Origin: Bacteroidota bacterium
Lineage (GTDB): Bacteria > Bacteroidota > Ignavibacteria > Ignavibacteriales > Melioribacteraceae
Length of the DNA stretch: 57,575 nucleotides
NCBI GenBank assembly: GCA_021824635.1
Contig: JAKAKD010000053.1
Location: forward strand, 1 to 57,575
Reading direction: 5' to 3'
Part shown: positions 5,531 to 31,304 of the stretch, in pieces
Position numbering within the stretch: the stretch's first letter is position 1
How the letters are laid out: the number at the start of each line of letters is the position of its first letter
The notes under the pieces: generated by a model
Told to the model about the DNA's origin: nothing
What the model saw: the letters and a program-made list of their open reading frames with translations, nothing else
Database searches by the model: none
Translations under genes and position numbers: made by a program

Positions 5531-5536
5531 TATTTA

Positions 5537-14214: not shown

Positions 14215-15852
14215 TTATTTTTCAAGCATGAACGGATAACGAAAATCTTTTCTTGCGACAAAATTTTCTTTTATTGTTCTCGGCGAAACCCATCTAACTA
14301 AATTCAAAAAACTTCCTGCTTTATCATTAGTTCCGCTGCCGCGTGCGCCGCCAAACGGCTGCTGTCCTACAACGGCACCGGTCGGTTTATCGTTGATGTA
14401 AAAATTTCCGGCCGCATGTTTTAATATTTTATCTGCAGTAACAATTGCAATTCTATCTTGTGCGAAAATTGATCCGGTTAATGCATAAGGAGAAGTCTCA
14501 TCACACAAATGCAATGTCTCTTCATACTTTTCATCTTCGTAAATATAAACGGTTAGCACCGGACCAAAAATTTCTTCTTCCATCGTTTTAAATTTCGGAT
14601 TAGTTGTAACGATTACAGTAGGATTAATATAGTAACCGACTTTATCATTATATTTTCCGCCGGCAATTATTTCTGCTTCTTTAGATTCTTCGGCATATTT
14701 GATGTAACCTGTAATTGTATCAAACGCCGCTTGATCAATAACAGCGTTGTTGTAATTTGAAAAATCTGTAACATCACCGGTTTTCAATTTCCCTAATTCG
14801 GTAACAAGATATTCTTTCACTTCCGGCCAGATTGATTTTGGAATATACGCGCGTGAAGCCGCGGAACATTTCTGCCCTTGATATTCAAACGCACCCTGAA
14901 TTAAAGATACACCGAGCAATCTTATATCTGCGCTCTTATGCGCGAATACAAAATCTTTTCCTCCGGTCTCACCGACAATTCTTGGATAAGATTTATAATT
15001 AGGAAGATTGTTTGAAATTGTTTTCCACATTTGTTGAAACACCGGAGTGCTTCCTGTAAAATGGAGTCCGGCAAAATTTTTATCGTTAAAAATTATGTCT
15101 CCAATTGTAGAGCCGGGACCGGGAAGAAAATTAATTACACCTGGCGGCAATCCCGCTGCTTCAAGCAACTTGACAATATAATATGCGGAATAAACACTTG
15201 TTGCTGCCGGTTTCAAGATTGCAACATTTCCCATAATTGCGGGCGCACCCGGAAGGTTCGCGTTGAAAGTTGTAAAATTGAACGGCGCAATTGCTAATAC
15301 AAATCCTTCAAGCGGACGGTATTCCATTCTATTCCACATTCCATGCGGAGAGTGAGGCGGTTGTTCCTGATAAATTTTATTTGCGTAATAAATATTGAAA
15401 CGGAAAAAGTCAGCTGTTTCGCAAGCCGCGTCAATCTCTGCCTGATGAACATTTTTACTTTGACCAAGCATACTTGCCGCGTTAAGTGTGTAGCGCCAAT
15501 CGGTTAATGTTATCATATCGGCGGCTCTGGAAAAGATTGCGGCTCTATCCTGCCATTCCATTACAGACCAAATTTTATATGCTTCCATAGCGGAATCAAT
15601 TGCCATGCGGATCTCTTTTTCTCCCGCTTTATGATATTTGCCGAGAACTTTTTTATGATTATGAGGTGCTACAATATTTCCGGTATTGCCTGTTCTAATC
15701 TCTTTGCCGCCGATTATCAGAGGAATATCAACCTGCTGATTTTCCATTTCTGCGAGTTTCGCTTTAAGCAATTCTCTTTCCGGAGTTCCCGGTGCATAAG
15801 TTTTTACTTCTTCATTATCGGGTAGAGCTAAATTGAATATTGCGTTTGCCAT
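14215..15852 (-). CDS. pruA: 1-Pyrroline-5-carboxylate dehydrogenase, copy 2
   Basis: A 545-residue NAD-dependent dehydrogenase, clearly paralogous to the protein at 7393-9018 over its whole length. Catalytic Cys is C329 in GQKCSAAS, the base lies in VGETGGK (E295), and FGGARGSGTNDKAG marks the C-terminal cofactor and substrate region. It converts glutamate semialdehyde (from proline, or from hydroxyproline via HypD) to glutamate; P5CDH in animals also takes the 4-hydroxy analogue. It opens the minus-strand block that holds the aminotransferase, HOGA-like aldolase, proline dehydrogenase, peptidases and HypD. Which copy prefers which semialdehyde cannot be read. Confidence 0.93.
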   Translation of the reverse strand: MANAIFNLALPDNEEVKTYAPGTPERELLKAKLAEMENQQVDIPLIIGGKEIRTGNTGNIVAPHNHKKVLGKYHKAGEKEIRMAIDSAMEAYKIWSVMEWQDRAAIFSRAADMITLTDWRYTLNAASMLGQSKNVHQAEIDAACETADFFRFNIYYANKIYQEQPPHSPHGMWNRMEYRPLEGFVLAIAPFNFTTFNANLPGAPAIMGNVAILKPAATSVYSAYYIVKLLEAAGLPPGVINFLPGPGSTIGDIIFNDKNFAGLHFTGSTPVFQQMWKTISNNLPNYKSYPRIVGETGGKDFVFAHKSADIRLLGVSLIQGAFEYQGQKCSAASRAYIPKSIWPEVKEYLVTELGKLKTGDVTDFSNYNNAVIDQAAFDTITGYIKYAEESKEAEIIAGGKYNDKVGYYINPTVIVTTNPKFKTMEEEIFGPVLTVYIYEDEKYEETLHLCDETSPYALTGSIFAQDRIAIVTADKILKHAAGNFYINDKPTGAVVGQQPFGGARGSGTNDKAGSFLNLVRWVSPRTIKENFVARKDFRYPFMLEK

Positions 15853-16003
15853 ATGAATAATAGTCCTAGTTTTTGTTTGAGGTTATTATTTTTTATTAAA
15901 ACAAAAGGGGGTGGTAAAAGATTCAAAAACGGTGAAATGTTAAAATGAAGGCCAGAATACTCAATAAAATTGAGGTGTAAATTTAGTGTCAGTTATCTGA
16001 ATT

Positions 16004-16261
16004 TCAAAAAACCGGAATTAGAAACGAAGCAACATACAAATCAGAATCTGTTTTGAGTGAATGCATTACTCCTGCCGGAACGATGAATTCTTTTCCGGTA
16101 GTTAATTCTACTTCTTTATCATCCAGCACTCCAAAACCTTTTCCATTGACGCAGTAAAAAATCTCGTCATGTTTCGGATGCTTATGCAAAGCAACATTAC
16201 TTTCACTTGTAATATGATAAACGTTTGTTACAATTTTGGCTTTGTATTCTTCAATGTTCAT
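16004..16261 (-). CDS. Small single-domain cupin protein
   Basis: An 85-residue protein made of one conserved beta-barrel (cupin 2). The metal-binding motif is visible as HKHPKHDEIFYCVNGKG, with His, His and Glu in the usual GX5HXHX3-4EX6G arrangement, and the second motif PAGVMHSL supplies the last His. The chain is very short, so it is probably a metal-binding or sensor-like cupin and not an enzyme with a known substrate. It is encoded 32 bases downstream of the aminotransferase gene in the same direction, so the two are likely co-transcribed. Confidence 0.8.
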   Translation of the reverse strand: MNIEEYKAKIVTNVYHITSESNVALHKHPKHDEIFYCVNGKGFGVLDDKEVELTTGKEFIVPAGVMHSLKTDSDLYVASFLIPVF

Positions 16262-16293
16262 TTAAGAATTTCCGGAATTCATTAGTGAGAAAT

Positions 16294-17421
16294 TTAATTT
16301 CTGATAAGAACTTTTTTCATTGCGCTAATGAAGTAGTCAATCATTTTTTCATTTGAGTTGTAGCCCATTAACCCGACTCGCCAGATTTTTCCCGCAAGCT
16401 CGCCAAGTCCGGCGCCAATCTCCAAATTATGTTTTGTTAGAAGATCAACTCTAACTTCGGCTTCATTCACGCCATCCGGAACTTTTATTGCCAGCAGATG
16501 AGGAATCCTCTCTCCGCTTGGAACAATCGGTTCTAAATCAAGCTCTACTTTCAGTCTCGAAATTAATTTAGCACTGTTTTCTTTATGCCTGCGCCACGCG
16601 TTTTCAATTCCTTCTTCTTTAAGAATTAATAGCGCTTCGTGCAATCCGTAAAAATGATTACTCGGCGCAGTGTGGTGATACATTCTTTTTGGTCCGCCGC
16701 TCCAATAGCCCATTAACAAATTCAAATCGTTGAACCAGCTTTGAACCGGAATTTTTCTGTTCTTAATATGATGAAGAGCTTGCTCGCTGAAACTAACAGG
16801 CGACATTCCTGCCACACACGCCAAACCTTTTTGAGAACATGAATAAACCGCGTCGAGTTTCCACTCATCAACAAAAACATCCGTTGCGCCGAGAGATGTA
16901 ACAACGTCCGCAACTACAAGGCAATTATGTTTGTGAGCTATTTCGGAAAGTTGTTTTATATTAGACAACGCTCCCGTTGATGTTTCCGCGTGAACGAACG
17001 CTACAATTTTTGCATCGGTATTGATGTTCAACGCGTCTTCAAGTTTTTGCGGATCAGTTGCGCGTCCCCATGTTTCTTTTACGGTAACAACTTGACCGCC
17101 GATCTTTTCAACAATTTGAATCATTCTATTGGCAAAATATCCGCCGGTGCAAACCACAACTTTATCTCCGGGCTCAATCATATTAACAAGACAAGCTTCC
17201 ATTCCGAGCGAGCCGGGACCGGAAATTACGAACGTCGCGTCATTCTCTGTCTTAAAAGTGTATTTGAGAAGTGATTTTATCTCATCCATAAGTTCGATGA
17301 ATTGAGGATCGAGATGACCGAGTGTTGCGCGCGACAACGCGTCCAAAACTTTCGGATTAACATTCGAGGGACCTGGTCCCATTAAAATTCTATGATAAGG
17401 ATTAAATGATTTGTGAGACAT
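16294..17421 (-). CDS. Alanine:glyoxylate / serine:pyruvate aminotransferase-like class V PLP enzyme
   Basis: A 375-residue class V aminotransferase. PLP-Lys is K198 in CSQKGL, the phosphate region is ISGPGSLGMEA, and ADVVTSLG carries the Asp that pairs with the ring. The closest pattern I recognise is animal AGXT: GPGPSN near the N-terminus, KRMYHHTAP, ENAWRRH and RVGLMGYN. AGXT turns glyoxylate into glycine, so it would remove the glyoxylate made by the HOGA-like aldolase encoded at 20806-21696. I start at 17421 (MSHKSFNP), which has AAAGGAAAAG upstream; the longer frame to 17469 runs into a repeat. Some relatives act on other amino acids, so the substrate is inferred. Confidence 0.85.
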   Translation of the reverse strand: MSHKSFNPYHRILMGPGPSNVNPKVLDALSRATLGHLDPQFIELMDEIKSLLKYTFKTENDATFVISGPGSLGMEACLVNMIEPGDKVVVCTGGYFANRMIQIVEKIGGQVVTVKETWGRATDPQKLEDALNINTDAKIVAFVHAETSTGALSNIKQLSEIAHKHNCLVVADVVTSLGATDVFVDEWKLDAVYSCSQKGLACVAGMSPVSFSEQALHHIKNRKIPVQSWFNDLNLLMGYWSGGPKRMYHHTAPSNHFYGLHEALLILKEEGIENAWRRHKENSAKLISRLKVELDLEPIVPSGERIPHLLAIKVPDGVNEAEVRVDLLTKHNLEIGAGLGELAGKIWRVGLMGYNSNEKMIDYFISAMKKVLIRN

Positions 17422-17460
17422 TGCTTTTCCTTTTGTTGGAGTTTGTCTTAAAAGATTGTT

Positions 17461-17558
17461 TGTCATCACGAGCGAAGCGAAGTGATCTCATTCTTTTAAA
17501 TAATAAAAGATTGCTTCGTCGTATACCTGCCTTCAGCAGTTAGACTCCTCGCAATGAC
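17461..17558. repeat. Interspersed inverted repeat of the GAGCGAAGCGA type
   Basis: The segment opens with TGTCATCACGAGCGAAGCGA and AGTGATCTC and closes with ATTGCTTCGTCG ... CTCCTCGCAATGAC, so the two ends are inverted copies. ATGACTTTTGAGAC follows, like the end of the 10161-10252 element. It fills the space between the VOC protein gene and the aminotransferase start. The minus-strand frames across it look like repeat-derived peptides and not like genes. Confidence 0.7.
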
Positions 17559-17631
17559 TATCATGATGACTTTTGAGACTATCTCTAGTTTATCAATTCT
17601 TAAATAAGAATCAAAATTGTTTTTCTTGTTG

Positions 17632-18021
17632 TTATACCGTTGGTTGAACCAGATTAATAAGATTGCCGCATGTATCCTCAAACGTAACCGCAGTAATTGG
17701 TCCCATATTTTCCGGTTTGCCGCGGAATATAACGCCAAGTTTTTTAAGCCGGTCATATTCCGCGTTTATATCATTGGTAATAAACGCAGTTGCGGGTATT
17801 CCGGCATCGAACAGAGCTTTCTGATATACACGGGCAGGTTCAAAAGCCAGTGGCTCAAGAACTAATTCTACGCCTTCAATACCTTCGGGCGATACGACTG
17901 TAAGCCAGCGGTATTCTCCCAATGGAATATCCGCCATCTTTGTAAAACCCAAAACGTTTGTGTAAAAGTTAAGCGCTTCTTCCTGGTTGTTTACGGTTAG
18001 ACTGATAAATTTTAGTTGCAT
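17632..18021 (-). CDS. VOC (glyoxalase/bleomycin resistance) superfamily protein
   Basis: The 129-residue chain has the paired beta-alpha-beta-beta-beta modules of the vicinal oxygen chelate fold: LKFISLTVNNQEEALNFYTNVLGF in the first half and AFITNDINAEYDRLKKLGV with FEDTCGNLINLVQP in the second. The final Glu/Asp and Asn positions fit a metal-binding VOC site. I chose ATG 18021 (MQLKFIS), with AAAGG upstream, over a frame running 40 codons further, because that extension overlaps the spacer and has no fold-like content. Many such proteins have no known substrate. It is oriented with the aminotransferase gene but separated from it by the repeat. Confidence 0.85.
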   Translation of the reverse strand: MQLKFISLTVNNQEEALNFYTNVLGFTKMADIPLGEYRWLTVVSPEGIEGVELVLEPLAFEPARVYQKALFDAGIPATAFITNDINAEYDRLKKLGVIFRGKPENMGPITAVTFEDTCGNLINLVQPTV

Positions 18022-18112
18022 AGAGACCTTTCTATAATTTTTACCAAAATAAAAACTAAAAATAACACTACCAACTACCACGTTCACCTTACGATAGCCG
18101 ATGTTCGATTTA

Positions 18113-18712
18113 TTAATTGCCGAAATAATAATCGAACCCAAGTTTTAGTGTTTCATTTTTACCATAATTATATAATCTGTCATCATCCTTAAATGGAATA
18201 AAAACATTTGTATCAATTCTTAATTTTAGTCTCTCAAAAATTTGGAAATAAATACCAATACCAACATCAATTGTTATTAGTTTGAAGCGACTATCATTTT
18301 TATGATGTCCAACATAGTCGCTACCGCCAACATATTTCTCATAAACCTTATGATACGAAATGCCGGCGGTCAAATAAAGCGGTATGAAAAAGTCATCAAT
18401 AATCTTATCTGGGTAAAAGTAGACTTTACTTCCAAACGTTAGACTAGAATATGAATAAGTAGCGGCATCTCTTATCTGAAACGCATCAGTAATGCCGTCA
18501 TTCCAATAACTTGTGAATAGGTCCCATTCTAAAGATTTAGTTATAAACTCTCCTCCAATTTTCAACTCAGGATAGAATGAATAAAGTTTATCATTGCCAA
18601 TATCATATTGATAATTTTTTATTATACCTAGATCGAGTGATATTTTTGAAATATTAGTTTGCGCATTCATAGAAAGAACAAATGCGAAAATAAGAGCAAT
18701 AATATATTTCAC
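18113..18712 (-). CDS. Putative outer-membrane beta-barrel protein
   Basis: I do not recognise a specific family. A signal peptide (MKYIIALIFAFVLSMNAQ) is followed by alternating aromatic and polar residues in short strands such as LEWDLFTSYWN, YSSLTFGSKVYFYP, IPLYLTAGISYHK and LKLRIDTNVFIPF. The last residues LKLGFDYYFGN end in a strand with aromatics, as in small barrel proteins. Length is 199 residues. The gene is 52 bases downstream of the TlpA-like gene in the same direction, so both may be expressed together at the envelope. Confidence 0.6.
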   Translation of the reverse strand: MKYIIALIFAFVLSMNAQTNISKISLDLGIIKNYQYDIGNDKLYSFYPELKIGGEFITKSLEWDLFTSYWNDGITDAFQIRDAATYSYSSLTFGSKVYFYPDKIIDDFFIPLYLTAGISYHKVYEKYVGGSDYVGHHKNDSRFKLITIDVGIGIYFQIFERLKLRIDTNVFIPFKDDDRLYNYGKNETLKLGFDYYFGN

Positions 18713-18764
18713 TTAATCGATTCCCATACTATATATAACCATATAAGGATTTATTATACAGAAG

Positions 18765-20042: not shown

Positions 20043-20123
20043 ATTACCACCTTATTTTTTTGAAGAATGGTAAAATGTTTTAATCATAGAACCTCTCTTT
20101 TTATATAACAGCGTTGAACACAA

Positions 20124-20417: not shown

Positions 20418-20419
20418 TT

Positions 20420-20695: not shown

Positions 20696-20712
20696 AAACA
20701 CTCCTTTCTTTT

Positions 20713-20746: not shown

Positions 20747-20805
20747 ATTTCAACAGCAAATAATTCCTAATGGCGGTATAACGATTAATTAGAAATATCT
20801 ACGGA

Positions 20806-21696
20806 CTATTTTATCGATAATCCCGCATTAACTAAAATCTGATTGAGCAGTTTCTTATCATCATCATTCAAAACGGAAAGAGGCGAACGCGGTTCGCCGC
20901 CAAAGTAGCCAAGCATATCCATTGCCGATTTCAATCCGGCAACACCGTATTTAGCAGTAATTGCTTTATTAACCGGCAGCATTCTCTTCTGAAGTTCAAG
21001 CGCATCAGTGTGTTTTCCTTCTTCAACTAATTTTTGAATTTGCACACATTCATCCGGTGCAATGTTTGCAAGGGCAAGAATGCCGCCGACAGCTCCGACA
21101 GTTAAACTTGTATAAAGAACGGATCCCGTTCCGGTTATGGTTGCAAAATTATCCGGAGTTTGTGCTACAAGTTCTGCTGTCTGACGTAAATTTTCAGCGC
21201 TGTTTTTTATCCCAACAATATTTTTATGTTCGGCAAGTTTTGCAACCGTCTCGGCTTCAATGTCAACGCCTGTAAATTTAGGAACGTTGTAAATTATAAC
21301 CGGTATTTTTGTTCTATCGGCAACAGCCGTGTAATATTTTATATAAGCGGCAGGTTTCATTTCTGATTTGTAAAATGACGGCGTAAGGATTAAAGCGTAA
21401 TCTGCGCCGCGTTCAGCCGCGTCATTAGTTAGAGAAATAGTTTCTCTAATTGAATCCGAACCGGTTCCCGCGATGAGCAGTTTATCTTCAGAAATATTAT
21501 TCTTAACGGCTTCAACTAATTTCAACTTTTCATCACGCTGAAGAAAAACACTTTCGCCGTTGGAGCCCATCACTACATATCCGCTCAATCCGGTCTTATT
21601 CCATTTCGAAAAATTTCCTGCAAGCTTATAATAAGCTACTTCATCATTGATGAATGGAGTTGCTATAGGGGGCATAATTCCTTTTAATCGTTTCAT
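20806..21696 (-). CDS. 4-Hydroxy-2-oxoglutarate aldolase-like enzyme (DapA/NanA superfamily)
   Basis: A class I aldolase of 296 residues. Schiff-base Lys is K164 in IVGIKNS and the catalytic Tyr is Y136 in IIYNVPKFTG. The substrate loop reads GSNGE (44-48), as in human HOGA1 as I recall it, and not GTTGE as in dihydrodipicolinate synthases. Further agreement with HOGA1 is seen in the AAYIKYYTAVAD, GAVGGILALAN and GLKSAMDMLGYFGG regions. HOGA splits 4-hydroxy-2-oxoglutarate, from hydroxyproline, into pyruvate and glyoxylate. Start 21696 (MKRLKGIMPP) has AAAGGGA; the frame extends upstream without meaning. A generic DapA role remains possible, but the neighbours (proline dehydrogenase, P5CDH, AGXT-like) favour hydroxyproline breakdown. 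Confidence 0.75.
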   Translation of the reverse strand: MKRLKGIMPPIATPFINDEVAYYKLAGNFSKWNKTGLSGYVVMGSNGESVFLQRDEKLKLVEAVKNNISEDKLLIAGTGSDSIRETISLTNDAAERGADYALILTPSFYKSEMKPAAYIKYYTAVADRTKIPVIIYNVPKFTGVDIEAETVAKLAEHKNIVGIKNSAENLRQTAELVAQTPDNFATITGTGSVLYTSLTVGAVGGILALANIAPDECVQIQKLVEEGKHTDALELQKRMLPVNKAITAKYGVAGLKSAMDMLGYFGGEPRSPLSVLNDDDKKLLNQILVNAGLSIK

Positions 21697-21746: not shown

Positions 21747-22673
21747 TTAAAAAATATTTTTTAGAACAAACCAAACATTTGCCGGACGTTCCGCTAAACG
21801 TCTCATGTACCACGGATACCAGAAATCCCCGTAACTTATCAGCACTCTTACTTTATGACCGTGGTTTGCCAGATTCTGCTGATAATTCGGCTTAATGCCG
21901 TATAGCATTTGAAACTCAACTTGCTCTTTCGAAACGCTGTAGTGTTTTGCTTCTTTTATAATTTGCGAACACAAATTTTCATCGTGAGTGCCGAAAGCAA
22001 TACGTACATTTTTTTTCCCTTTCTGCCGCAACATTAATTTTGCAAGGTGTAGATAATTTTCATCAACATCTTTTTTCAGCTTGAATGCAATATCGGCAGG
22101 CTCTTTATATGCGCCTTTAACCAAACGGATATTAGCATCAATGTTCATCAAATCTTCCAAATCCTTTTCCGTTCTGTAAAGATAAGCTTGAACGCACAGA
22201 CCGACGTTATCAAATTCTTCCCTAATTTTTTTATAAAAGAAAATAGTTTTTTCGGTATAAGCGCTTCCTTCCATATCAATCCAGATCATATTACCAAGTT
22301 TCTCTTTTACTTTTTCCGTAATTGATTTGAAACGCTCGTAGGTTTCTTCAAAATCCGAATCGAAACCGAGTTGTGAAAGTTTTAGAGAAATTTCTATATC
22401 AAGTTTCTGCTCTGAAATTTTATCAATCAGTTCAAGATAATTATTCCGGACTTCAAGCCCTTCAGAAAGATGATTGATGTTTTCGCCAAGTCGTGTAAAG
22501 ATTGCCGGGATTGAACCTTCATTAAATAATTTAGCGGCATGAAGAGCATCACTTACATTTTCGCCGGGCATAAACTTTTTAATTGCGCTTCTAACGAATT
22601 TCCATTTAGGAACATGAGCGCGCATCCACGGATTTTCTGAAGCCCATAGAAGCAGGTTTCGGGAAATTCCCAT
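21747..22673 (-). CDS. Proline dehydrogenase family protein
   Basis: A monofunctional FAD-dependent proline dehydrogenase (308 residues, TIM barrel). Typical patterns are LSLKLSQLG-like beta strand text (EISLKLSQLGFD), IWIDMEGSAY, VGLCVQAYLYRTEKDLEDL, VRLVKGAYKE-like IRLVKGAYKEP, and the C-terminal YGDFWYPWYMRRLAERPANV, where the conserved Arg pair binds the substrate carboxylate. It gives P5C from proline; PRODH2-type enzymes use 4-hydroxyproline, and the Tyr to Ser change that marks such specificity cannot be judged here. It lies 50 bases before the aldolase gene and 24 bases after the M24 peptidase, so the three are one operon. Confidence 0.92.
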   Translation of the reverse strand: MGISRNLLLWASENPWMRAHVPKWKFVRSAIKKFMPGENVSDALHAAKLFNEGSIPAIFTRLGENINHLSEGLEVRNNYLELIDKISEQKLDIEISLKLSQLGFDSDFEETYERFKSITEKVKEKLGNMIWIDMEGSAYTEKTIFFYKKIREEFDNVGLCVQAYLYRTEKDLEDLMNIDANIRLVKGAYKEPADIAFKLKKDVDENYLHLAKLMLRQKGKKNVRIAFGTHDENLCSQIIKEAKHYSVSKEQVEFQMLYGIKPNYQQNLANHGHKVRVLISYGDFWYPWYMRRLAERPANVWFVLKNIF

Positions 22674-22696: not shown

Positions 22697-23872
22697 TTAA
22701 ACTAATATTATATTTTTTTGCGGATTGGTCAACCACTCACAACCGGTTTCTGTAATAATTATCATTTCTTCAATCGAAACTACTCCGTGTTCAGGTACAG
22801 TCAGCCGCGGTTCGATTGTAAAGACCATTCCCGTTTCTAAATTTTTAAAAGGTTTCTGTGCATATTTTTCCCATGCCGGTCCAAGCAGCGCTGTTCCATC
22901 ATGCGGAAATCGTCCGACTTGATGACCGAGTCCGAAAGGATATTCATCATATCCATTTGCAGTAATCGTATCGCGTGCGATTTTATCAATCATGTGTCCT
23001 TGTGTGCCGGGTTTAATTCCTTGTTTCGCTTTTTCGATTGCTTCTACATTAACATCAAATCCTTTTTGAACAGATGATGGCGGATTTTTTTCACCGTCTC
23101 GCAGAATGTAAAACGTGCGCTGCATATCTGAACAATAACCGTTTACCTTAACACCAAAATCCATATTTAGGAGATGACCTTTTTCAACCTCACGGTCTGT
23201 TGGTGCGTAATGAGCTCCGGCAGTTTCGGGTCCGGTGAAAACAGAAGGGCAAACTTTTTCATCCCAGGCAAATTTCAATTTTCTCTTTTCAACTTCTTGT
23301 TTCATGAATGAGGCAATTTCTTTTTCGGTCTTGCCCGGCTTAATAAATTTTGCAACCAGATCAAATATCTCTTCGGTATATCTGATTGCTTCTTTTATGT
23401 TTTCAACTTCAGATTTAGATTTTCTCTCTCTCAAAGCCGAAACAATTTTTTCTGCGGAGATCAATCTATTCTCAAAACTTATTTCGGAAAGAACATTTTG
23501 AAGTGTTAGATACATACCGTAAGTAAGTCCGTCGCAAATTTCACTTCCAACAGAATAATTGATCGCAATCTTTTTCGGATTCAACTTTTTCAGAAGAGTT
23601 AGCAGTGGTTCTTTAAATCCTCTTACAAATCCGGTAACGGAATCATAGACGCCAAGTTCTTCAACTGTTAGGCGGTCATATTCTCCAACAATTGCATGGG
23701 CCTCATTTTTTGTGATGATGAATGACGAATGCCAAGTAAGATCGGATTCAACTAAAAAAGCAAGTGTCGGATCGCCGTTAATTGAAGTTTCACGCGCGAA
23801 TGTGAGCCAGCAGTCAATATCAAATTCGTCTAAAAGTTTTTTTGCCTGTTCAACTTTTTCTTTTATTAACAT
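22697..23872 (-). CDS. M24-family Xaa-Pro peptidase (prolidase-like)
   Basis: A 391-residue pita-bread metallopeptidase. The five metal ligands are recognisable: Asp in NMDFGVKVNGYCSD (two Asp), His in GLGHQVGRFPHDG, and Glu in FTIEPRLTV and SIEEMIII. The N-terminal 150 residues are the creatinase/prolidase-type domain. The start at 23872 (MLIKEKVEQ) has GAGGGG upstream; the frame extends ten codons more but without a ribosome site. Such enzymes cut Xaa-Pro bonds in the cytoplasm. The gene is directly followed by proline dehydrogenase, which would take the released proline. Confidence 0.88.
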   Translation of the reverse strand: MLIKEKVEQAKKLLDEFDIDCWLTFARETSINGDPTLAFLVESDLTWHSSFIITKNEAHAIVGEYDRLTVEELGVYDSVTGFVRGFKEPLLTLLKKLNPKKIAINYSVGSEICDGLTYGMYLTLQNVLSEISFENRLISAEKIVSALRERKSKSEVENIKEAIRYTEEIFDLVAKFIKPGKTEKEIASFMKQEVEKRKLKFAWDEKVCPSVFTGPETAGAHYAPTDREVEKGHLLNMDFGVKVNGYCSDMQRTFYILRDGEKNPPSSVQKGFDVNVEAIEKAKQGIKPGTQGHMIDKIARDTITANGYDEYPFGLGHQVGRFPHDGTALLGPAWEKYAQKPFKNLETGMVFTIEPRLTVPEHGVVSIEEMIIITETGCEWLTNPQKNIILV

Positions 23873-23897
23873 TTGCCCCTCGTGTGATTTGGTTAAA

Positions 23898-23973
23898 GTC
23901 ATTCTGAGGGAGTGTGTTAGTCAACGAAACTAAACTTGTTGTACTCGAGATTTTTAGCTCCACTCAGAATCTT
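23898..23973. repeat. Short inverted repeat element between M24 peptidase and DNA methylase genes
   Basis: GTCATTCTGAGGGAGTGTG (from 23898) and CTCCACTCAGAATCTT (to 23973) are inverted copies around a short core with CTCGAG. Repeats opening with GTCATTCTGAG are widespread in bacterial genomes. The rest of this spacer up to 24069 shows nothing I can assign. Confidence 0.6.
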
Positions 23974-24069: not shown

Positions 24070-25632
24070 TCAGATCCCAATTCTTTTCGCTTTTCTTATT
24101 TCAAATTTATTTTTCTTCTCGTTTACGAATAGATTTAACTGTGTTGGTTGTCTGTATATTGGTCTGACCAATTTGTATTTTTCAACGAGCTCATCTGGGA
24201 TTCCGAGTTTTTCTAAGTTTCTCGGTTCAACTTTAATTGCGCCTGAACCATAGCTTTTACCAACAAGGGACAAGTTTTTTAATGTATCTGGATGGTTTAA
24301 AACTATCCAAAGATTGTGCGTAAATATTTCATCATTATGAATTGGGTATACGCAAAGGAAACCTGTTAAAGGTAAAACTTCAGCTTTATTTAAAATAAAC
24401 CGAGAATTTCTACGACCCAAATATGTGAAAAGAATTTTCGGGATTTCTCTTTTTTCCATTTTAAACCAAGGTCTTCTTTGTTGAATAAGAGCTCTATCGG
24501 GTAAACCCATCTTTTCGCCAAGTCGTAAGTACTGAACTACCGGAATAGGCAAATTTTCTCTCTGATTCTCAATGGATAGTAGGCGAGTAGGGCGTTTCTT
24601 TGAATCAAGATTTTTTATATCATTTATGTTAAGAATATCCCCAGAGATATCTTTTGTTCTTCCAATAGCAGTTTTAAAATATATTTCAGGAATATTTAAT
24701 TCTTTTACTTGGTCTCCAGTCAGAAAAAAGAATTCATTGGATCCCGTTGCTATTCCGCGCATGACTTTTGCAAAATCGGAAAGATGATATTTAAACCCAT
24801 TGCCGTTTTGTTGAGGCCTAGAAAAACCAGTATCTAATGCTTCATGAATATTTCTATTAGTAACTGAGATAGTTTCAAAATTTTTTTCTTTAAAATTATT
24901 TTTTACCAACTGTGTTAGATCGGCAGAAAATGGTTTATTTACTTTTACCCATATAAGATTTTCCAGCGGTTTAGTCTTTTTGATTAGGAAAATTAGAGGA
25001 TTAGTATCAACAGCTGGAAAGGGTGTTGCTATTCTTTCGAATGTAATCACACATTCGATTGCATATTCTTTTGAAATCCAATTCCATAATTTTTTTGCGA
25101 AGGTTCCCTCGCAAGTATCGGCAGGCATAATAAATGCAAGTTTCCCATTTTCCTCTAGATGATTAAGAGCTTGTAGTAAAAAGAAAATGTGATAACCTGC
25201 TCTTCCGTCTAGTGTAAATCCGGTAATGTTTGCCGTGAGTTTTTTTAAAAATAGTTTAGTCTTACTATCAATGCGGTGATGACGTATATAAGGAGGATTG
25301 GCAATGATTGATTTAAAAAGTTTTTTAGGGGGATTTTTAATGAAATCTCTTTTTTCAACAATGCAATTTCTATCTCTGAAAATAGCATCACTCAAAACAT
25401 CTTCGTCAATATCAGTTCCGTAGAATGGAATACCTTTTTTTGTAACTCTTCTTAATGCCTCTAAAAATGCCCCCTTTCCAACCGCAGGATCAAATATTAA
25501 TTTTGCCCCGTTAAGGACATAACTAATCATTGCGTCTGCAACCCAAGGCGGAGTCCAGAATTGACCTTTCTCTCTCAGTTTTTCTCTTTCATCCCAGTTG
25601 GTTGGAATGAGTTGAACAGTTTTATTCGTCAT
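24070..25632 (-). CDS. N6-adenine DNA methyltransferase of a type II restriction-modification system
   Basis: A 520-residue class I SAM-dependent methyltransferase. The SAM motif is IFDPAVGKGAF (47-56) and the catalytic motif is ANPPY (111-115), giving N6-adenine methylation with the gamma order of motifs. Residues beyond about 270 form a target-recognition region. Its ATG overlaps the stop of the upstream endonuclease gene by four bases (ATGA), a typical coupled restriction-modification pair. The recognition sequence cannot be read, but if the partner is AccI-like, it may be related to GTMKAC. The pair interrupts the proline genes and may have been acquired. Confidence 0.88.
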   Translation of the reverse strand: MTNKTVQLIPTNWDEREKLREKGQFWTPPWVADAMISYVLNGAKLIFDPAVGKGAFLEALRRVTKKGIPFYGTDIDEDVLSDAIFRDRNCIVEKRDFIKNPPKKLFKSIIANPPYIRHHRIDSKTKLFLKKLTANITGFTLDGRAGYHIFFLLQALNHLEENGKLAFIMPADTCEGTFAKKLWNWISKEYAIECVITFERIATPFPAVDTNPLIFLIKKTKPLENLIWVKVNKPFSADLTQLVKNNFKEKNFETISVTNRNIHEALDTGFSRPQQNGNGFKYHLSDFAKVMRGIATGSNEFFFLTGDQVKELNIPEIYFKTAIGRTKDISGDILNINDIKNLDSKKRPTRLLSIENQRENLPIPVVQYLRLGEKMGLPDRALIQQRRPWFKMEKREIPKILFTYLGRRNSRFILNKAEVLPLTGFLCVYPIHNDEIFTHNLWIVLNHPDTLKNLSLVGKSYGSGAIKVEPRNLEKLGIPDELVEKYKLVRPIYRQPTQLNLFVNEKKNKFEIRKAKRIGI

Positions 25633-26567
25633 CGTAATCTTTCTAATTCTTCTAAAGCTTCGTTCATAATTTTCAAACGACCGCCTTCAAATTTAACATA
25701 TGGAAGTATATGACCATTTTTATCTTTTATGTAAGCTGGTATTAACTTTGGTTCTTCAGTAGAAATTCCCAATGGGTAGGCATAGTGATAATAGATCTTA
25801 TAAATGATTTTTTTTGTGGTTGCACCACCGGGTGCCTGAAAAACTTGCTCAGTTGGAAGTATCAATTTTCTAGAAATTAAGTTTTTCAATTTATTATAAG
25901 AGATTCCAAAAGCTAAATCATAGAAACCATGCCATATATGAATAATTTTTTTGTTGCTTGTTTGCCATTTAGTTAACGGTTTTAAATCCTCTAATTTCAC
26001 AATAATTGTTGGAACAACTGCAGATTTTTTTAGTCCTAATTTTCCGTTTAATCTTTTTTGTGGAGTGAGTTCGTTTCCATAAGATGGCATATCTTTAGCA
26101 ACCCAAAGTGAGTTTTCACATTCAACGCCGATTAACGATTTTTCTATAAGTTGCTGTAGATCCCTTTCTTTAATAAATGGTAACTCCTGTTCACCGCCAA
26201 TACTTTTAAGGAACTTCTCAACAAAAGCTTTGTCTTCTATTCTATAGATTAATAAGTCTGGTCGTTTTATCTCTCCCAAACCTGCTTTTTCTAATCGTTC
26301 AAAGTATAATTCAAACTCTCGAACGTCATCTGAGGGTGCGGCGCTACTTGGTCCATATTGAATTGCAAAATATTTTTTTGTTGAGTTTATGGTTTCAATT
26401 AAACGGTGTTCGCTCCAAACGCCTTGAGACCAACGCATCAAGAAGTCGCTCCCACGTAGCCTTCGGGGATTTAATAAAAAATCAGCCCACTCAATTTTGC
26501 CCAAACTTTGAAGTAGAATTGAAATTTCTTCTTTACTTACACTTAATACTTTTTCAAAAGGATGCAT
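25629..26567 (-). CDS. Putative AccI-family type II restriction endonuclease
   Basis: A 312-residue protein next to a methyltransferase gene. It has FLMRWSQGVWSEHRLIETIN and YGPSSAAP near the N-terminus, patterns I recognise from AccI-type enzymes. A PD-(D/E)XK-like core can be drawn: P103-D104 in KRPDLLIY and E149-C-E151 in GVECENSLWVAKDM, where the usual last Lys is replaced by Asn/Ser, as in some related nucleases. The gene is 53 bases after the M24 peptidase gene, and its end overlaps the methyltransferase start. Assignment to AccI is from memory of the family pattern; nuclease function is likely from context. Confidence 0.7.
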   Translation of the reverse strand: MHPFEKVLSVSKEEISILLQSLGKIEWADFLLNPRRLRGSDFLMRWSQGVWSEHRLIETINSTKKYFAIQYGPSSAAPSDDVREFELYFERLEKAGLGEIKRPDLLIYRIEDKAFVEKFLKSIGGEQELPFIKERDLQQLIEKSLIGVECENSLWVAKDMPSYGNELTPQKRLNGKLGLKKSAVVPTIIVKLEDLKPLTKWQTSNKKIIHIWHGFYDLAFGISYNKLKNLISRKLILPTEQVFQAPGGATTKKIIYKIYYHYAYPLGISTEEPKLIPAYIKDKNGHILPYVKFEGGRLKIMNEALEELERLR

Positions 26568-26619
26568 CTCCTCTCCAATTTATTTACGGCTATTTTACCA
26601 TAGTTAGCTAATTTCATAA

Positions 26620-28014
26620 TCAAATTTTATCCGATGCGATTTCTTCAACATCTTCAACGGCTTTTGGAATCGGTCTGCCTAGAACGCGGCTTCCGTTTTT
26701 GGTAACCAGCATATCATCTTCAATTCTGATACCGCCGAAATCGCGGTAAGCATTGACTTTATTATAGTTGATAAACTCGGTAAACTTTTTCTCGCTTTCC
26801 CATTTATCAATCAATTGAGGAATGAAATAAATTCCCGGTTCAACAGTCATTACAACACCCTGAACGAGTGGTCTTGCATAACGCAAATATTTCAAACCAA
26901 ATTGAGTGCTGCGTTTCAATTTATCATCATAACCAAAATTATTTTCTCCGTAGTTTTCCATATCATGAACATCAAGACCTAACAGATGGCCGAGACCATG
27001 CGGCATGAACAAAGCATGCGCTCCGGCTTCAACTGCGTTTTTCATGTTGCCTTTCATCAATCCAACCGCTTTTAATCCTTCGGCAATTACTTCAACGGAT
27101 TTAAGATGAACCGTTTTGAATGGAATTTTTGGTTTGATTTCTGAAATTGCGGTTAATTGTGAAATTAATACAATCTCATAAATATCTCTTTGACGCGGGG
27201 AAAATTTTCCGCTTACCGGAAATGTTCTTGTGATATCGCTTGCGTAATGCAATTCTGTTTCCGCGCCGGAATCATTAACTACAAGATCGCCGTCTTTTAA
27301 TTTATTGTTGTATGAATGATTGTGAAGAGTCTCGCCGTGCCGTGAAAATATAACTGGAAACGAAAGCCCGCTTCCAAGTGACATAGAAAGTCCGGAGATG
27401 AAGCCCATTACATCGCGTTCGAGCATTCCCGGTTTTGCAAAACGCATTGCCGCAGTCTGCATCTCATAGGAAATTTCAATCGCCTTTTCTATTTCCGTAA
27501 TTTCCTCATTGGATTTTACCATTCTCTGGTTTGCGATTGCTTTGATTAATTCCATTGATGCGTAATCATTAGTATGCTTGGGAGCGATTCCGAGGAGTTT
27601 CTGAATCTTCAAAATATTGTCGTATCTGTATTGAGGAACAAAATGAATTTTTCTTCCATGCCTAATTGCATTTAGACATACATTCTCAAGTACGTTCAAT
27701 GATGCTGTTTGTTTAATTCCACATTTTGACGCGCTCTGTTTAATAGTCGGCTGAGGTCCCATCCAGACGATATCGTCCAGAGAAAAATCATTGCCGAAAA
27801 TAATTTCTTTATTCTCGTCAACATCAATCACCGCGGCAAGTTCCGCCTGATCTAATCCAAAGTAATAAAGAAATGTACTGTCCTGACGGAATGAGTAAGT
27901 GTTGTCTGTGTAATTCATTGGCGCTTCATTATTGCCGAGAAATAAAATTAAACCACCGCCGACTTTCTTTTTTAATTCCGCTCTGCGTTGAATGTAAGTT
28001 TTCGAGTTGAACAT
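26620..28014 (-). CDS. pepP: Xaa-Pro aminopeptidase (M24B, PepP type)
   Basis: A 464-residue aminopeptidase P. The N-terminal half has GGGLILFLGNNEAPMNYTDN and YFGLDQAELAAVI, the usual aminopeptidase P domain. Metal ligands are the Asp pair in VVNDSGAETELHYASDITRTFPVSG, His in HGLGHLLGLDVHD, and Glu in TVEPGIYF and GIRIEDDML. It releases the N-terminal residue from peptides whose second residue is proline. This is the second M24 enzyme in the block; with the prolidase-like protein it would cover Xaa-Pro-peptides and dipeptides. A hydroxyproline-dehydratase gene lies just upstream on the same strand. Confidence 0.92.
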   Translation of the reverse strand: MFNSKTYIQRRAELKKKVGGGLILFLGNNEAPMNYTDNTYSFRQDSTFLYYFGLDQAELAAVIDVDENKEIIFGNDFSLDDIVWMGPQPTIKQSASKCGIKQTASLNVLENVCLNAIRHGRKIHFVPQYRYDNILKIQKLLGIAPKHTNDYASMELIKAIANQRMVKSNEEITEIEKAIEISYEMQTAAMRFAKPGMLERDVMGFISGLSMSLGSGLSFPVIFSRHGETLHNHSYNNKLKDGDLVVNDSGAETELHYASDITRTFPVSGKFSPRQRDIYEIVLISQLTAISEIKPKIPFKTVHLKSVEVIAEGLKAVGLMKGNMKNAVEAGAHALFMPHGLGHLLGLDVHDMENYGENNFGYDDKLKRSTQFGLKYLRYARPLVQGVVMTVEPGIYFIPQLIDKWESEKKFTEFINYNKVNAYRDFGGIRIEDDMLVTKNGSRVLGRPIPKAVEDVEEIASDKI

Positions 28015-28043
28015 AATTCGTCCTTTTCTATTTGTTAAAAATT

Positions 28044-28132
28044 TTCTGTGTTAATCCGTGTTATCGGTGTCATCCGTGTGCTATAATCGTTAATAGAACG
28101 CTGATAACACGGATGACGCAGATTTTCACCGA
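28044..28132. repeat. Palindromic repeat directly behind hypD
   Basis: Left half: TTTCTGTGTTAATCCGTGTT and ATCGGTGTCATCCGTGTGCTAT; right half: ATAGAACGCTGATAACACGG and ATGACGCAGATTTTCACC. The halves are inverted and share a GTTATC-TGTCATCCGTGT core. The element ends at the base before the hypD stop codon. Related but degenerate copies lie at 10161-10252 and 39663-39762. Confidence 0.75.
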
Positions 28133-30496
28133 TTAATATCCAGTGTGTTCTGTTCTGCGAATAATTTCATTTTGTAAATCCTCGCCGAGATCTACAAAAT
28201 AATCGCTGTAACCCGCGACGCGTACAATTAAATCGCGGTATTTTTCCGGATGCTTCTGAGCTTGTTTCAATACTTCTGCATTTACAACATTGAACTGCAG
28301 ATGGTGCCCGTCTAATCTAAAGTATGTTCGAATTAGCTGCAAAACTTTTTCTCTGCCTTCATCGGTTTCTAAAAAAGTGGGAGTGAATTTCTGATTCAGC
28401 AAAGTGCCGCCCGTACGCAGATGATCAATCTTAGATGCCGATTTAATTACGGAAGTCGGACCGTGAACATCCGCACCTTGAACCGGAGAAATTCCTTCGC
28501 TTACCGGTTCTTTTGCAAATCGTCCGTCCGGAGTAGCGCCAAGCACACTTCCAAAATAAACATGGCAAGTCGTTGGAAGAAGATCAATTCTGAAATGACC
28601 GCCCTTAGTATTTGGTCTGCCGTCAACAGCTTTGAAATAACTTTCGAATACTCTGCGGGTCAAATCATCTGCGTAATCGTCGTCGTTTCCGTATTTCGGA
28701 GTTTCGAATAAAAATTTATCACGTGCGTCTTTTCTGTTCTCAAAATTAGTTTTGAGAAGTTCAATCAACTCTTTCATAGAAAAATTCTTTTTATCAAAAA
28801 CATTGTACTTTATTGATGAAAGGGAATCGGTTATTGTTCCGAGTCCGACACCCTGAATGTATGATGAATTGTAACGCGCGCCGCCTGCATTATAATCTTT
28901 TCCTTTCTTGATGCAATCGTCAACAAGAATTGATAAAAATGGTGACGGCATATATTCAGCATAAATTCTTTCGATGATGACGTTACCTTTTATTTTGATA
29001 TCAATAAAATGATTCATCTGTTTTTCGAATGCATCGTAAAGTTCATCAAACGATTTGAAACTGTTCGGATCGCCTGTTTTAATTCCGATATTTTTATTTG
29101 TGAACGGATCGAATCCGTTGTTAAGAGTGATTTCTAAAATTTTAGGAATGTTGAAATATCCTGTAAGTATGTAGGCTTCTTTGCCGAATGCGCCTGCTTC
29201 AACACATCCGCTTGCGCCGCCGCATCGTGCATCAATAATTGATTTTCCCTGCCGTGTTAATTCCTGAATGATCGCGTCTGTATTAAAAATAGAGGGTTGT
29301 CCGTAACCTGTCATAATAATTTTGAGGGCGCGCTTTAATAACCGGTCCGGATTTTTTTTGCTAACCTGCACCATTGAACTCGGCTGAAGCAGACGCATCT
29401 CTTCTATCACATCAAGAATCATGTAAGTCATATCGTTCGTTGCGTCTTCACCTTTTGTAGTTACGCCGCCGACGTTTATCAAACAAAAATCTGTATATGT
29501 ATTACTCTCCTGTGCGGTTACGCCAACTTTTGGCGGCGCCGGCTGATTATTAAATTTCACCCAGAATGATTGAAGCAGTTCAACAGCAAATTCTTCTGTG
29601 AGCAATCCGCTTTCAACATCGCGTTTAAAAAATGGATAAAGATGCTGATCGAGTCTGCCGGGATTGTATGAATCCCATGTATTGAGTTCCGTTGTTACGC
29701 CAAGATGAACGAACCAATAATATTGTAACGCTTCCCAGAAAGTTCGAGGTGCATTTGCCGGAACACGTTCACAAATTCCCGCCATTGTTTCCAATTCATT
29801 TTTGCGCTGCGGATCCTTTTCCAATTTAGCTAGTTCACTAAGCCGTTTTGAATAACGCTTGGCAAATGCAATCAAAGCATCAGCCGCAATTTCCATTGCG
29901 TGGAGTTCCTCTCTCTTTGCAAACGCTTCCGGATCGTTATAAAAATCTAAATTGTTTATTGCCTCTTCAATTTCATTTTTGAAGTCGAGCATACCTTTTC
30001 TAAAAATTTTATCATCTCCAACAGTATGTCCCGGAGCCCGCTGTTCCATGAACTCGGTGAAAATTCCGGCATTGTAAGAATCGCGCCATGCTTCATCAAC
30101 TTCTTCCAGAATTTTTTCCCGGATACTTTTTCCTTTCCAGAAAGGAGCGACTTCATTCAAAACTACATTTCGGGTTTCATTGCTGCTTTTGAACCAAACC
30201 TTTGAACGGTTGTGAAGAATATCCAAATCTTGTTCTGAGTGAACGCATAGTTCGGGATAAGTCGGCGTTGCTTTTGGTTCCGGACCTTTCTCTCCGACGA
30301 AAAGTTCACCGGCGTTTATACAAAGTTCCTTGTGCTCTAAAATATATTTTAGCGACAATGCCCGCGCCACCGGAATTGAATGTCTTTGTGCTTCGCCGCT
30401 TTTGTAAAATTCAGTTAAGAGTTGAGCACGCTCGTGAGAAAGTGTTGGTATTGCGTCGAGCGATTGCTGTCTTAGTTTTTTTATACGTTCGTTCAT
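28133..30496 (-). CDS. hypD: trans-4-Hydroxy-L-proline dehydratase, glycyl radical enzyme HypD
   Basis: A 787-residue glycyl radical enzyme. The thiyl Cys C431 with E433 (GCVE) and the radical Gly G762 (RVAGYSDYF) are present. Against the residues I recall for Clostridioides difficile HypD (F152, H160, D278, S334, F340, C434, E436, Y450, T645, G765), every one is matched at a constant offset of three: F149, H157, D275, S331, F337, C431, E433, Y447, T642, G762. This makes HypD far more likely than glycerol or choline enzymes. It dehydrates trans-4-hydroxyproline to P5C anaerobically. Start 30496 has GGAGG, one base after the activase stop. Downstream partners (proline dehydrogenase, P5CDH, peptidases) fit. 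Confidence 0.94.
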   Translation of the reverse strand: MNERIKKLRQQSLDAIPTLSHERAQLLTEFYKSGEAQRHSIPVARALSLKYILEHKELCINAGELFVGEKGPEPKATPTYPELCVHSEQDLDILHNRSKVWFKSSNETRNVVLNEVAPFWKGKSIREKILEEVDEAWRDSYNAGIFTEFMEQRAPGHTVGDDKIFRKGMLDFKNEIEEAINNLDFYNDPEAFAKREELHAMEIAADALIAFAKRYSKRLSELAKLEKDPQRKNELETMAGICERVPANAPRTFWEALQYYWFVHLGVTTELNTWDSYNPGRLDQHLYPFFKRDVESGLLTEEFAVELLQSFWVKFNNQPAPPKVGVTAQESNTYTDFCLINVGGVTTKGEDATNDMTYMILDVIEEMRLLQPSSMVQVSKKNPDRLLKRALKIIMTGYGQPSIFNTDAIIQELTRQGKSIIDARCGGASGCVEAGAFGKEAYILTGYFNIPKILEITLNNGFDPFTNKNIGIKTGDPNSFKSFDELYDAFEKQMNHFIDIKIKGNVIIERIYAEYMPSPFLSILVDDCIKKGKDYNAGGARYNSSYIQGVGLGTITDSLSSIKYNVFDKKNFSMKELIELLKTNFENRKDARDKFLFETPKYGNDDDYADDLTRRVFESYFKAVDGRPNTKGGHFRIDLLPTTCHVYFGSVLGATPDGRFAKEPVSEGISPVQGADVHGPTSVIKSASKIDHLRTGGTLLNQKFTPTFLETDEGREKVLQLIRTYFRLDGHHLQFNVVNAEVLKQAQKHPEKYRDLIVRVAGYSDYFVDLGEDLQNEIIRRTEHTGY

Positions 30497-30497
30497 T

Positions 30498-31304
30498 TTA
30501 TCCTCCGATCTTAATCGGAATGCCAAGTTGTGAGAATCTATTTTTTAATTCGTTCATATATTCTTTTGTGGGCGGGATTATATCAATAACTTTATTTAGA
30601 ATTTTCATCCGCTCGTATTTTGATTTTGCCGTTGTATGAAACGGAAGCAGATCTATCTCGCGTATATTTTTCAATGTTGAAATGAAAGAGATTGTCTGCG
30701 TTATATTTTCTTCTGTAGCAGTTAAAGTTGGAATAACCGGGAACCGCAAAATAATTTTATTGCCGTGCGAAGAGAGCTCTTTCAGGTTTTCATGTATTAG
30801 TTTATTTGAAACACCGCAATAGTCATAATGAAATTTATCGTCTATCAGTTTTAAATCGTAAAGGAATATGTCGGTCAAATCATAAATTTTTTCGAAGTCT
30901 GTGGGTGGCGCGTATCCGGTTGTATCAATTGCAGTATTTATATCTTTCTTTTTGCATTCAGTAAGAAGCTGATGAAGAAAATCAATTTGCAGCATCGGTT
31001 CGCCGCCGGAAAATGTAGCTCCGCCTTTGGATTCTTCGTAAAACGGCAAATCTTTTTCTACCTCGCGTATTACATCATTAACAGAAACTTGAGAGCCGAT
31101 CATATTACGTTGTGAAGACTCATAAGAAAGATTCCAACGGAAAGAGCAGTTATCAATTTTCTCCGGCTCACTGCTTCTGCTTTCGGGATTATGGCACCAC
31201 CAGCAAGACAAAGGACAGCCTTTCAAGAAAACAGTTGTGCGGATACCCGGACCATCATTAACCGAATATTTTTTTATATCGAAGATGTAACCTGAATCTC
31301 GCAT
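30498..31304 (-). CDS. hypE: Glycyl radical enzyme activase HypE, compact form
   Basis: The radical SAM enzyme that makes the glycyl radical on HypD. It has the SAM cluster Cys C30, C34 and C37 (KGCPLSCWWCHNP), GGEP (100-103) and YDLKLID further on, and ends GIPIKIGG. The start at 31304 (MRDSGYIFDIKKYS) gives 268 residues. Most non-pyruvate-formate-lyase activases carry a ferredoxin-like insert with two additional clusters after the first motif; here the corresponding stretch (about residues 41-75) keeps a single Cys (C53), so that insert is missing or degenerate, as in PFL activase. The stop is one base before hypD, so the two are a tight operon transcribed activase first. The longer frame upstream to 31532 overlaps the EamA gene and is not used. 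Confidence 0.9.
   Translation of the reverse strand: MRDSGYIFDIKKYSVNDGPGIRTTVFLKGCPLSCWWCHNPESRSSEPEKIDNCSFRWNLSYESSQRNMIGSQVSVNDVIREVEKDLPFYEESKGGATFSGGEPMLQIDFLHQLLTECKKKDINTAIDTTGYAPPTDFEKIYDLTDIFLYDLKLIDDKFHYDYCGVSNKLIHENLKELSSHGNKIILRFPVIPTLTATEENITQTISFISTLKNIREIDLLPFHTTAKSKYERMKILNKVIDIIPPTKEYMNELKNRFSQLGIPIKIGG

Follow-up and report, generated by a model that had tools for sequence, protein, structure and literature searches.

A predicted hydroxyproline catabolism cluster that joins HypD to a HOGA/AGXT-type oxidative branch in an Ignavibacteria-class bacterium

Gene content of the locus

The window, by which we mean the whole stretch of DNA analysed, has 57,575 nucleotides (contig JAKAKD010000053.1, assembly GCA_021824635.1) and comes from a Bacteroidota bacterium of the class Ignavibacteria, family Melioribacteraceae. 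The genome assembly comprises 3.06 Mb in 107 contigs and is 94% complete. The minus strand of the window carries, between positions 14215 and 31304, genes for HypD and its activase HypE, two Xaa-Pro peptidases, a proline dehydrogenase (PRODH), an aldolase resembling human 4-hydroxy-2-oxoglutarate aldolase (HOGA), an AGXT-like aminotransferase and a 1-pyrroline-5-carboxylate (P5C) dehydrogenase (P5CDH). An earlier note, made from the letters alone, had named this set of genes, and both the open frames and the family models confirm it. We propose that the locus is probably a catabolic island for hydroxyproline-containing peptides of the collagen type, with an anaerobic route through HypD and a second, respiratory route.

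The radical-SAM activase HypE (30498-31304, 268 residues) lies next to HypD (28133-30496; NF043068 1317.8 bits, cut-off 1100; PDB 6vxc 1064 bits). They are followed by an M24 peptidase of the aminopeptidase P/prolidase type, an Xaa-Pro type (26620-28014; PF00557 and PF05195), and by an M24 peptidase of the Xaa-Pro dipeptidase type (22697-23902; PF00557 158 bits). The latter ends 23 bases upstream of the PRODH paralogue, called PRODH2 here and predicted to be a hydroxyproline dehydrogenase (21747-22673; PF01619; 2ekg 197 bits). The predicted HOGA-like aldolase (20806-21696) has 296 residues from its ATG. The AGXT-like class V aminotransferase (16294-17421, 375 residues) is predicted to convert glyoxylate to glycine, and the ALDH4-type P5CDH (14215-15852; TIGR01236 776.8 bits, cut-off 613.6) is predicted to serve both routes. 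For four genes the true start is later than that of a mechanically called open reading frame: HypE starts at 31304 (frame open from 31532), HypD at 30496, the aldolase at 21696 (frame open from 21813) and the aminotransferase at 17421 (frame open from 17469), each running from an ATG to a single stop.

The HOGA-like aldolase

The GSNGE motif and the HOGA1-like C-terminal pattern described in the earlier note are both present, the latter as GYFGG, which resembles GYYGG of HOGA1. The best match in the PDB is human HOGA (3s5n, 221 bits), followed by a DapA with 150 bits. In the AlphaFold2 model (predicted local distance difference test score 94.6) the best Foldseek match is again 3s5n (E 9.8e-32, template modelling score 0.96), with DapA structures at E 3e-24. 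The sequence identity is 40% with human HOGA1, 25-34% with DapA proteins and 27% with an LhpC-like protein.

It is important to compare the residues of human HOGA that were probed by mutation (PMC3188589, in extract). In human numbering, Ser77, Asn78, Tyr168, Lys196, Ser198 and Gly222 are kept in the window and in all 38 HOGA-like rows of the comparison. The 38 rows represent 35 distinct genes, since L082/L239, L085/L184 and L148/L177 are identical. The five residues tested by mutation are kept in 38/38 rows, as is the pair of the Schiff-base Lys196 and Tyr168, the window included. At these five positions the DapA proteins encoded beside dapB read Thr, Thr, Tyr, Lys and Ala in 15/15 rows, so that positions 77, 78 and 198 are Ser/Asn/Ser in every HOGA-like row versus Thr/Thr/Ala in these DapA rows. 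In a sixteenth dapB-linked DapA (G023, L254) the motif is GSTGE, accompanied by Arg and Ala, so that it reads Ser/Thr/Ala as judged by motif. Arg138 of E. coli DapA is retained in 15/15 DapA rows and is Asn in human HOGA1; in place of the DapA combination Thr44-Thr45 with Arg138, the HOGA-like rows have Ser-Asn and Phe (38/38). The position of Tyr140 is occupied by Phe in the window and in 29/38 HOGA-like rows; in the extract of PMC3188589, this tyrosine of human HOGA appears unnecessary for proton shuttling.

Two trees were calculated, in which plants, fungi and other families of dihydrodipicolinate synthase (DHDPS) type are hardly sampled. The first, which omits the HOGA-like rows L082, L085, L148 and L187 and represents L255 by its end alone, places human HOGA1 inside the HOGA-like clade with support 100/99. 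The second combines 25 rows selected from the earlier ones with 14 from an Acidobacteriota set; it places HOGA1 with the HOGA-like clade on a 95/86 branch, apart from DapA (100/100), its exact position within the clade being tentative (88/57). The phylogeny of the aldolase against HOGA1 and DapA had been set beforehand as a test, and the protein does not fall inside DapA; the trees, the residues and the lack of dapB described below agree on this point.

HOGA-like genes also occur in the Acidobacteriota, the phylum of comparison genome G058, with 111/396 genomes positive at E 1e-50. Among the 14 aldolase copies read from this set, 9 have GSTGE and 4 have GSN. One locus of that phylum (L277) has a GSNGE HOGA-like gene with an AGXT-like gene (41%) directly behind it; neither PRODH nor HypD occurs within 16 kb.

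The PRODH paralogue

The comparison set consists of 57 genomes, 23 with a HOGA-like gene and 34 without. A PRODH match is found in all 57, and the form of the window, PRODH2, in 22 of them, the other copies being 53-90% identical. In 22/22 genomes a HOGA-like gene lies downstream of PRODH2 on the same strand, at most 0.5 kb away; 21 of these aldolases were checked by motif and that of G054 by score and position alone. A separate core PRODH is encoded elsewhere in 21/22 of the genomes, while none showed in G006. The loci with the PRODH2-HOGA pair that carry names are mostly Ignavibacteriales or Ignavibacteria metagenome assemblies (L082, L083, L086, L148). Others are labelled Bacteroidetes (L085, L087) or Deltaproteobacteria (L160), and L084 holds this PRODH form on a short contig.

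The best fold matches of PRODH2 are 2ekg and 2g37; the related proteins of solved structure are PutA and short bacterial PRODHs, and PRODH2 itself is of the short Thermus type. The positions of Asp285, Tyr540 and Tyr552 of E. coli PutA are Thr, Leu and Trp in 34/34 PRODH2 rows (Leu278 and Trp288 in the window), while Lys329, Asp370, Arg555 and Arg556 (PutA numbers) are kept in all 34. Core PRODHs have the PutA-like Asp, Tyr and Tyr in 48/48 rows, 21 of them from genomes that also have the paralogue. The 34 paralogue rows correspond to 31 distinct genes and the 48 core rows to 45 (G014, G023 and G027 entered twice); an early comparison, with the split PRODH2 of G054 excluded, held 8 core PRODHs and was later widened to the 48. 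Tyr540 of PutA reportedly keeps hydroxyproline out of the active site (work of Ostrander in 2009), with which the title of PDB entry 3e2q agrees, a PutA Tyr540Ser mutant with trans-4-hydroxy-L-proline. A paper of 2015 by Summitt is said to treat PRODH2.

In a tree of 79 of the 106 PRODH rows collected, the Leu/Trp pair is explained by a single change, and the HOGA-linked copies form a subclade (Shimodaira-Hasegawa-like approximate likelihood ratio test 99). The loss of Tyr540 and Tyr552 was considered as a stand-alone marker of hydroxyproline use and rejected, on account of this single change and of the occurrence of the clade in other phyla without HOGA. Since the Leu/Trp pair is shared with loci free of HOGA, the clade may accept both proline and hydroxyproline, as judged from sequence; in the HOGA-linked group, stronger evidence comes from the partner gene.

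HypD and HypE

HypD belongs to its family both by the curated model score and by its catalytic residues. The equivalents of His160, Asp278, Ser334, Asp339, Phe340, Cys434, Glu436, Tyr450 and Thr645 are all kept (9/9 checked), together with the Gly loop, the catalytic and binding residues being those named in the extract of PMC7077986. Asp292, also named there, was taken as a numbering slip and left uncounted: the window has Phe at this position, but so does the C. difficile protein. HypE scores above the cut-off of the general activase model (TIGR02494, 276.8 bits against 174.35) and below that of the HypD-activase model (NF043069, 311.6 bits against 425). The match of the short HypE to NF043069 is split in two, which may reflect a reduced form of the usual iron-sulfur insert. 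HypE adjoins HypD in relatives too.

HypD is found above the cut-off in 13/23 genomes with a HOGA-like gene versus 4/34 of the others. Its distance from PRODH2 is at most 6 kb in G000, G001, G004, G005, G007, G013 and G019, and in G095, G111 and G412 it is in the same cluster as PRODH2-HOGA. There is no HypD match in 7 of the 22 PRODH2-HOGA genomes, and HypD is in parts in G006 and G022 and reduced to a scrap in G010, some of these genes standing at contig ends; thus PRODH2-HOGA is the constant unit, which HypD has joined in part of the genomes. The scrap in G010 (L187, near 3342-3470) is a C-terminal piece beside PRODH2-HOGA that matches about 46 positions of the model (E 1.9e-4), as might be left after a loss of HypD-HypE.

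The aminotransferase and P5CDH

The best PDB match of the AGXT-like protein is 1vjo, named alanine-glyoxylate aminotransferase, with 363 bits, while human AGXT gives about 245 bits. The 1vjo protein is, we assume, cyanobacterial. No NCBIfam equivalog model reached its cut-off with the AGXT-like protein. At E 1e-60, the threshold for counting the gene as present, it is found in 17/57 genomes, namely 17/23 with HOGA and 0/34 without (Fisher 7e-10). The Fisher values for co-occurrence take no account of kinship between genomes.

A match above the TIGR01236 cut-off is found in 36 genomes, of which 33 have a single P5CDH of this type. The window holds a second ALDH4-type P5CDH on its plus strand (7393-9018; TIGR01236 781 bits). 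It follows an ABC transporter with a solute-binding protein (4556-7369), of the molybdate type by its setting, and precedes molybdopterin genes.

The cluster in relatives

Relatives with five different genus codes (g1, g3, g9, g43 and g45) show the order HypE-HypD-M24-PRODH2-HOGA again, and this recurrence indicates that the grouping is more than chance. In several relatives the M24 gene follows HypD. The variable members are a POT dipeptide transporter (PF00854), a second M24 gene, a gene of the proline-racemase family, AGXT and P5CDH. A full-length S37 peptidase (PF05576) stands beside the cluster in L171, L172, L175, L179, L185, L241 and others. In the window itself, the partial S37 (PS-10) peptidase that the earlier note had placed at the contig end is borne out at 2-556 on the minus strand (PF05576, 123 bits), truncated by that end.

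The proline-racemase-family gene occurs in 10/23 HOGA genomes versus 1/34 of the others. The protein found in the clusters of relatives has Cys/Thr in its active site, as in trans-3-hydroxy-L-proline dehydratases. Eight rows with MCGH and DRSPTGTG represent seven genes (L148 being L177): five beside PRODH2-HOGA (L174, L176, L177, L178, L180), one beside HOGA alone (L185) and one on another contig (L165, G036). For the copies read, a role as 4-hydroxyproline epimerase was rejected because of the Cys/Thr active site; the copy in an Lhp-like cluster of G030 (L186) has Cys/Cys. The POT, S37 and Cys/Thr racemase-family neighbours suggest, from their sequences, that collagen-type peptides are the substrate.

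Other genes of the window

The two M24 genes of the window are split by a type II restriction-modification pair outside the pathway (24070-26567, minus strand), an Eco57I-like methylase and an AccI-type nuclease. The same pair (81-89%) is found between M24 and PRODH2 in G007 (L173), and a metabolic operon with an internal restriction-modification pair is therefore common to these two genomes. The interval between the HOGA and AGXT genes holds a TlpA-like gene and two small genes. A VOC/glyoxalase-fold protein is encoded in this interval (17632-18141, minus strand; PF00903 57 bits) and also in that of G001 (L170). Near the S37 end of the contig, at 2220-4403, is an aldehyde ferredoxin oxidoreductase gene (PF01314, PF02730).

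Proposed function and alternative explanations

The substrates, the aminotransferase step and the switch with oxygen described here are predictions from gene content and sequence, and the order of steps in the respiratory branch is that of the vertebrate hydroxyproline pathway (PMC8779045, in extract). The S37 peptidase would trim peptides, which would be taken up, in relatives by the POT transporter of the cluster, and the two M24 prolidases would release free proline and hydroxyproline. In the first route, without oxygen, HypE-activated HypD would dehydrate trans-4-hydroxy-L-proline to P5C, which P5CDH would oxidise to glutamate. In the second, PRODH2 would act as hydroxyproline dehydrogenase to give 3-hydroxy-P5C, P5CDH would convert this to 4-hydroxyglutamate, and a general aspartate aminotransferase would form 4-hydroxy-2-oxoglutarate. 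The HOGA-like aldolase would split this acid into pyruvate and glyoxylate, the latter to be turned into glycine by the AGXT-like enzyme. The second route would pass electrons to the respiratory chain; two COX1 matches above the cut-off are present in the genome. The two-branch reading proposed in the earlier note is supported in that the gene sets of both branches are present, and together in relatives. Their union in one neighbourhood recurs in relatives as well, but the linkage is not obligatory, given the PRODH2-HOGA genomes that have no HypD match.

Several observations, among them these genomes and the partial HypD genes described above, weigh against the proposed pathway. The AGXT-like gene was not found at its threshold in G007, G009, G011, G036, G040 and G030, and it is on a different contig from HOGA in G026 and G032; in G010 the whole cluster is divided over contigs. 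HOGA-like genes stand without PRODH2 beside them in G030, G126 and G427 and in the more distant G315 and G080. No 4-hydroxyglutamate aminotransferase was seen in the cluster, and the genome was not searched for one. The AGXT-like protein and PRODH2 are closer to bacterial than to human forms. Thus the label 'animal-like' given to this branch in the earlier note holds for the aldolase, by sequence, and for P5CDH, by its TIGR01236 type; it does not hold for the aminotransferase, nearer to 1vjo than to human AGXT, or for the short Thermus-type PRODH. Human PRODH2 presumably has Ser at the position of Tyr540, not Leu. The Leu/Trp motif is found in 76/80 fetched loci, with a clear HOGA-like gene in the examined flank of 7. 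Two Ignavibacteria loci (L088, L106) have the motif but no HOGA gene in the flank, and the clade extends to Acidobacteriota, Gemmatimonadota and Chloroflexi loci without HOGA in the examined flank.

A first alternative, which we consider rather improbable, is that the locus serves proline and the HypD route alone. PRODH2 would then be another proline dehydrogenase, and the aldolase and AGXT-like enzyme would act on an unrelated 2-keto-4-hydroxy acid or on glyoxylate and lie in the operon for regulation. The Leu/Trp PRODH is the sole PRODH found in 10/17 genomes (of completeness not stated) from loci without a clear HOGA, and so it can probably oxidise proline. Moreover, in 20 of the 111 Acidobacteriota HOGA-like neighbourhoods no PRODH or HypD was found beside the aldolase gene, an observation of small weight as the aldolase itself was recognised in just 14 of the 20. 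Against this alternative stand the adjacency of PRODH2 and HOGA in every PRODH2 genome together with a separate core PRODH in all but one. The HOGA residues, including Asn78 and Ser198, are kept in the linked genes, while most of the Acidobacteriota copies read have GSTGE. The hydroxyproline-type neighbours, HypD and the protein resembling trans-3-hydroxyproline dehydratase, also speak against a proline-only function.

That the aldolase is LhpC, the deaminase of 1-pyrroline-4-hydroxy-2-carboxylate (Pyr4H2C), is very unlikely. LhpC is likewise a DHDPS-family protein found in hydroxyproline clusters (PMC6608401 and PMC4113996, in extract), but the genome of the window has no match to the proline-racemase-family epimerases (PF05544). 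In addition, G030 has a likely Lhp cluster, with an epimerase above the cut-off, a DadA-like protein, an aldehyde dehydrogenase and its own DHDPS protein, apart from its HOGA-like gene. This DHDPS protein is only 27% identical to the aldolase of the window and has other residues, and the two DHDPS proteins of this one genome are therefore different things. A pSymB segment of 30 kb (L166), intended to provide a characterised LhpC, had no match to DHDPS and was not used.

The remaining alternative, that the aldolase is DapA of the lysine pathway, has a negligible chance of being right. In its favour, the protein belongs to PF00701, with no other member found in its genome, and comes near the TIGR00674 cut-off (196.7 bits against 206.15). 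Against it, the protein has GSNGE, Ser198 and Phe for Arg138 and forms a separate clade from DapA, and there is no dapB (PF05173) match in its own genome, 94% complete, or in 32/33 genomes of its family; the usual route to lysine is therefore missing, and the aldolase does not belong to it. Among relatives from the same order, the 15 fetched DapA genes adjoin dapB, and G036, G040, G047, G054 and G055 each carry such a dapB-linked DapA and a HOGA-like gene as well. In the family of the window, 13/15 genomes without a HOGA-like gene are also without any DHDPS protein match. With dapB missing in 32/33, this leaves the supply of diaminopimelate and lysine in that family unexplained.

Relation to known pathways and significance

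The proposed hydroxyproline pathway has the same predicted chemistry as that of animal mitochondria (PRODH2/HYPDH, ALDH4A1, aspartate aminotransferase, HOGA1, AGXT), where HYPDH denotes hydroxyproline dehydrogenase. HOGA1 clusters with the bacterial aldolase and has the same tested residues, and the P5CDH is of the TIGR01236 type. Unlike in animals, the PRODH is of the short form with Leu/Trp, the aminotransferase is nearer to 1vjo, and the genes are clustered and joined to HypD. The HypD-HypE pair resembles that of anaerobes such as Clostridioides difficile in the nine checked residues and the adjoining HypE. However, in C. difficile proC adjoins hypD (PMC12899673, in extract), while here P5CDH and an oxidative branch are in the cluster and HypE is short and under its cut-off.

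Breakdown of hydroxyproline by bacteria through HypD is described in PMC7077986, and the D-hydroxyproline (Lhp) route in PMC6608401, with genome neighbourhoods in PMC4113996 and PMC5144071, all in extract. The extract of PMC5144071 contrasts the D-hydroxyproline route with the mammalian one to pyruvate and glyoxylate, and that of PMC7883544 presents a marine collagen cluster of the D-hydroxyproline type. The LhpABCD or S. meliloti hyp pathway (epimerase, D-hydroxyproline dehydrogenase, Pyr4H2C deaminase, α-ketoglutarate semialdehyde dehydrogenase) is alike in that hydroxyproline is degraded with a DHDPS-family enzyme. It differs in its epimerase, of which none was found in the genome of the window, and no DadA-like gene was seen in the cluster, though no search was aimed at a D-hydroxyproline dehydrogenase. 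The Cys/Thr racemase-family protein of relatives, beside PRODH2-HOGA, resembles trans-3-hydroxyproline dehydratases and scores 394 against an NCBIfam cut-off of 540; the genome of the window itself has no such protein.

In the open-licence literature of PMC, with most subscription papers outside this scope, no bacterial locus combining HypD with a HOGA branch and no HYPDH-HOGA-AGXT cluster was recognised. The combination of genes and the predicted bacterial HYPDH look new, each enzyme being of a known kind. With slightly more confidence than doubt, we suggest that some Ignavibacteria-class bacteria have a complete animal-type pathway from hydroxyproline to glycine, with a dedicated bacterial HYPDH, in one operon with HypD and, in relatives, trans-3-hydroxyproline dehydratase. 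Both hydroxyprolines of collagen would then be used with or without oxygen, and animal HOGA1 would be a member of a clade whose genes are, in these bacteria, bound to this operon.

Aldolase genes of this type, whose best NCBIfam model is just under its cut-off, risk being named dapA, and a false step of lysine synthesis would be credited to such genomes. The short bacterial HYPDH and the bacterial HOGA/AGXT set could serve as models for the enzymes of primary hyperoxaluria. With HypD in the same cluster, a simple switch is predicted, by which collagen would be used either anaerobically or by respiration. If the proposal is true, bacteria would have a third route beside those through D-hydroxyproline and HypD, namely a mammal-like oxidation of L-hydroxyproline by a dedicated HYPDH.

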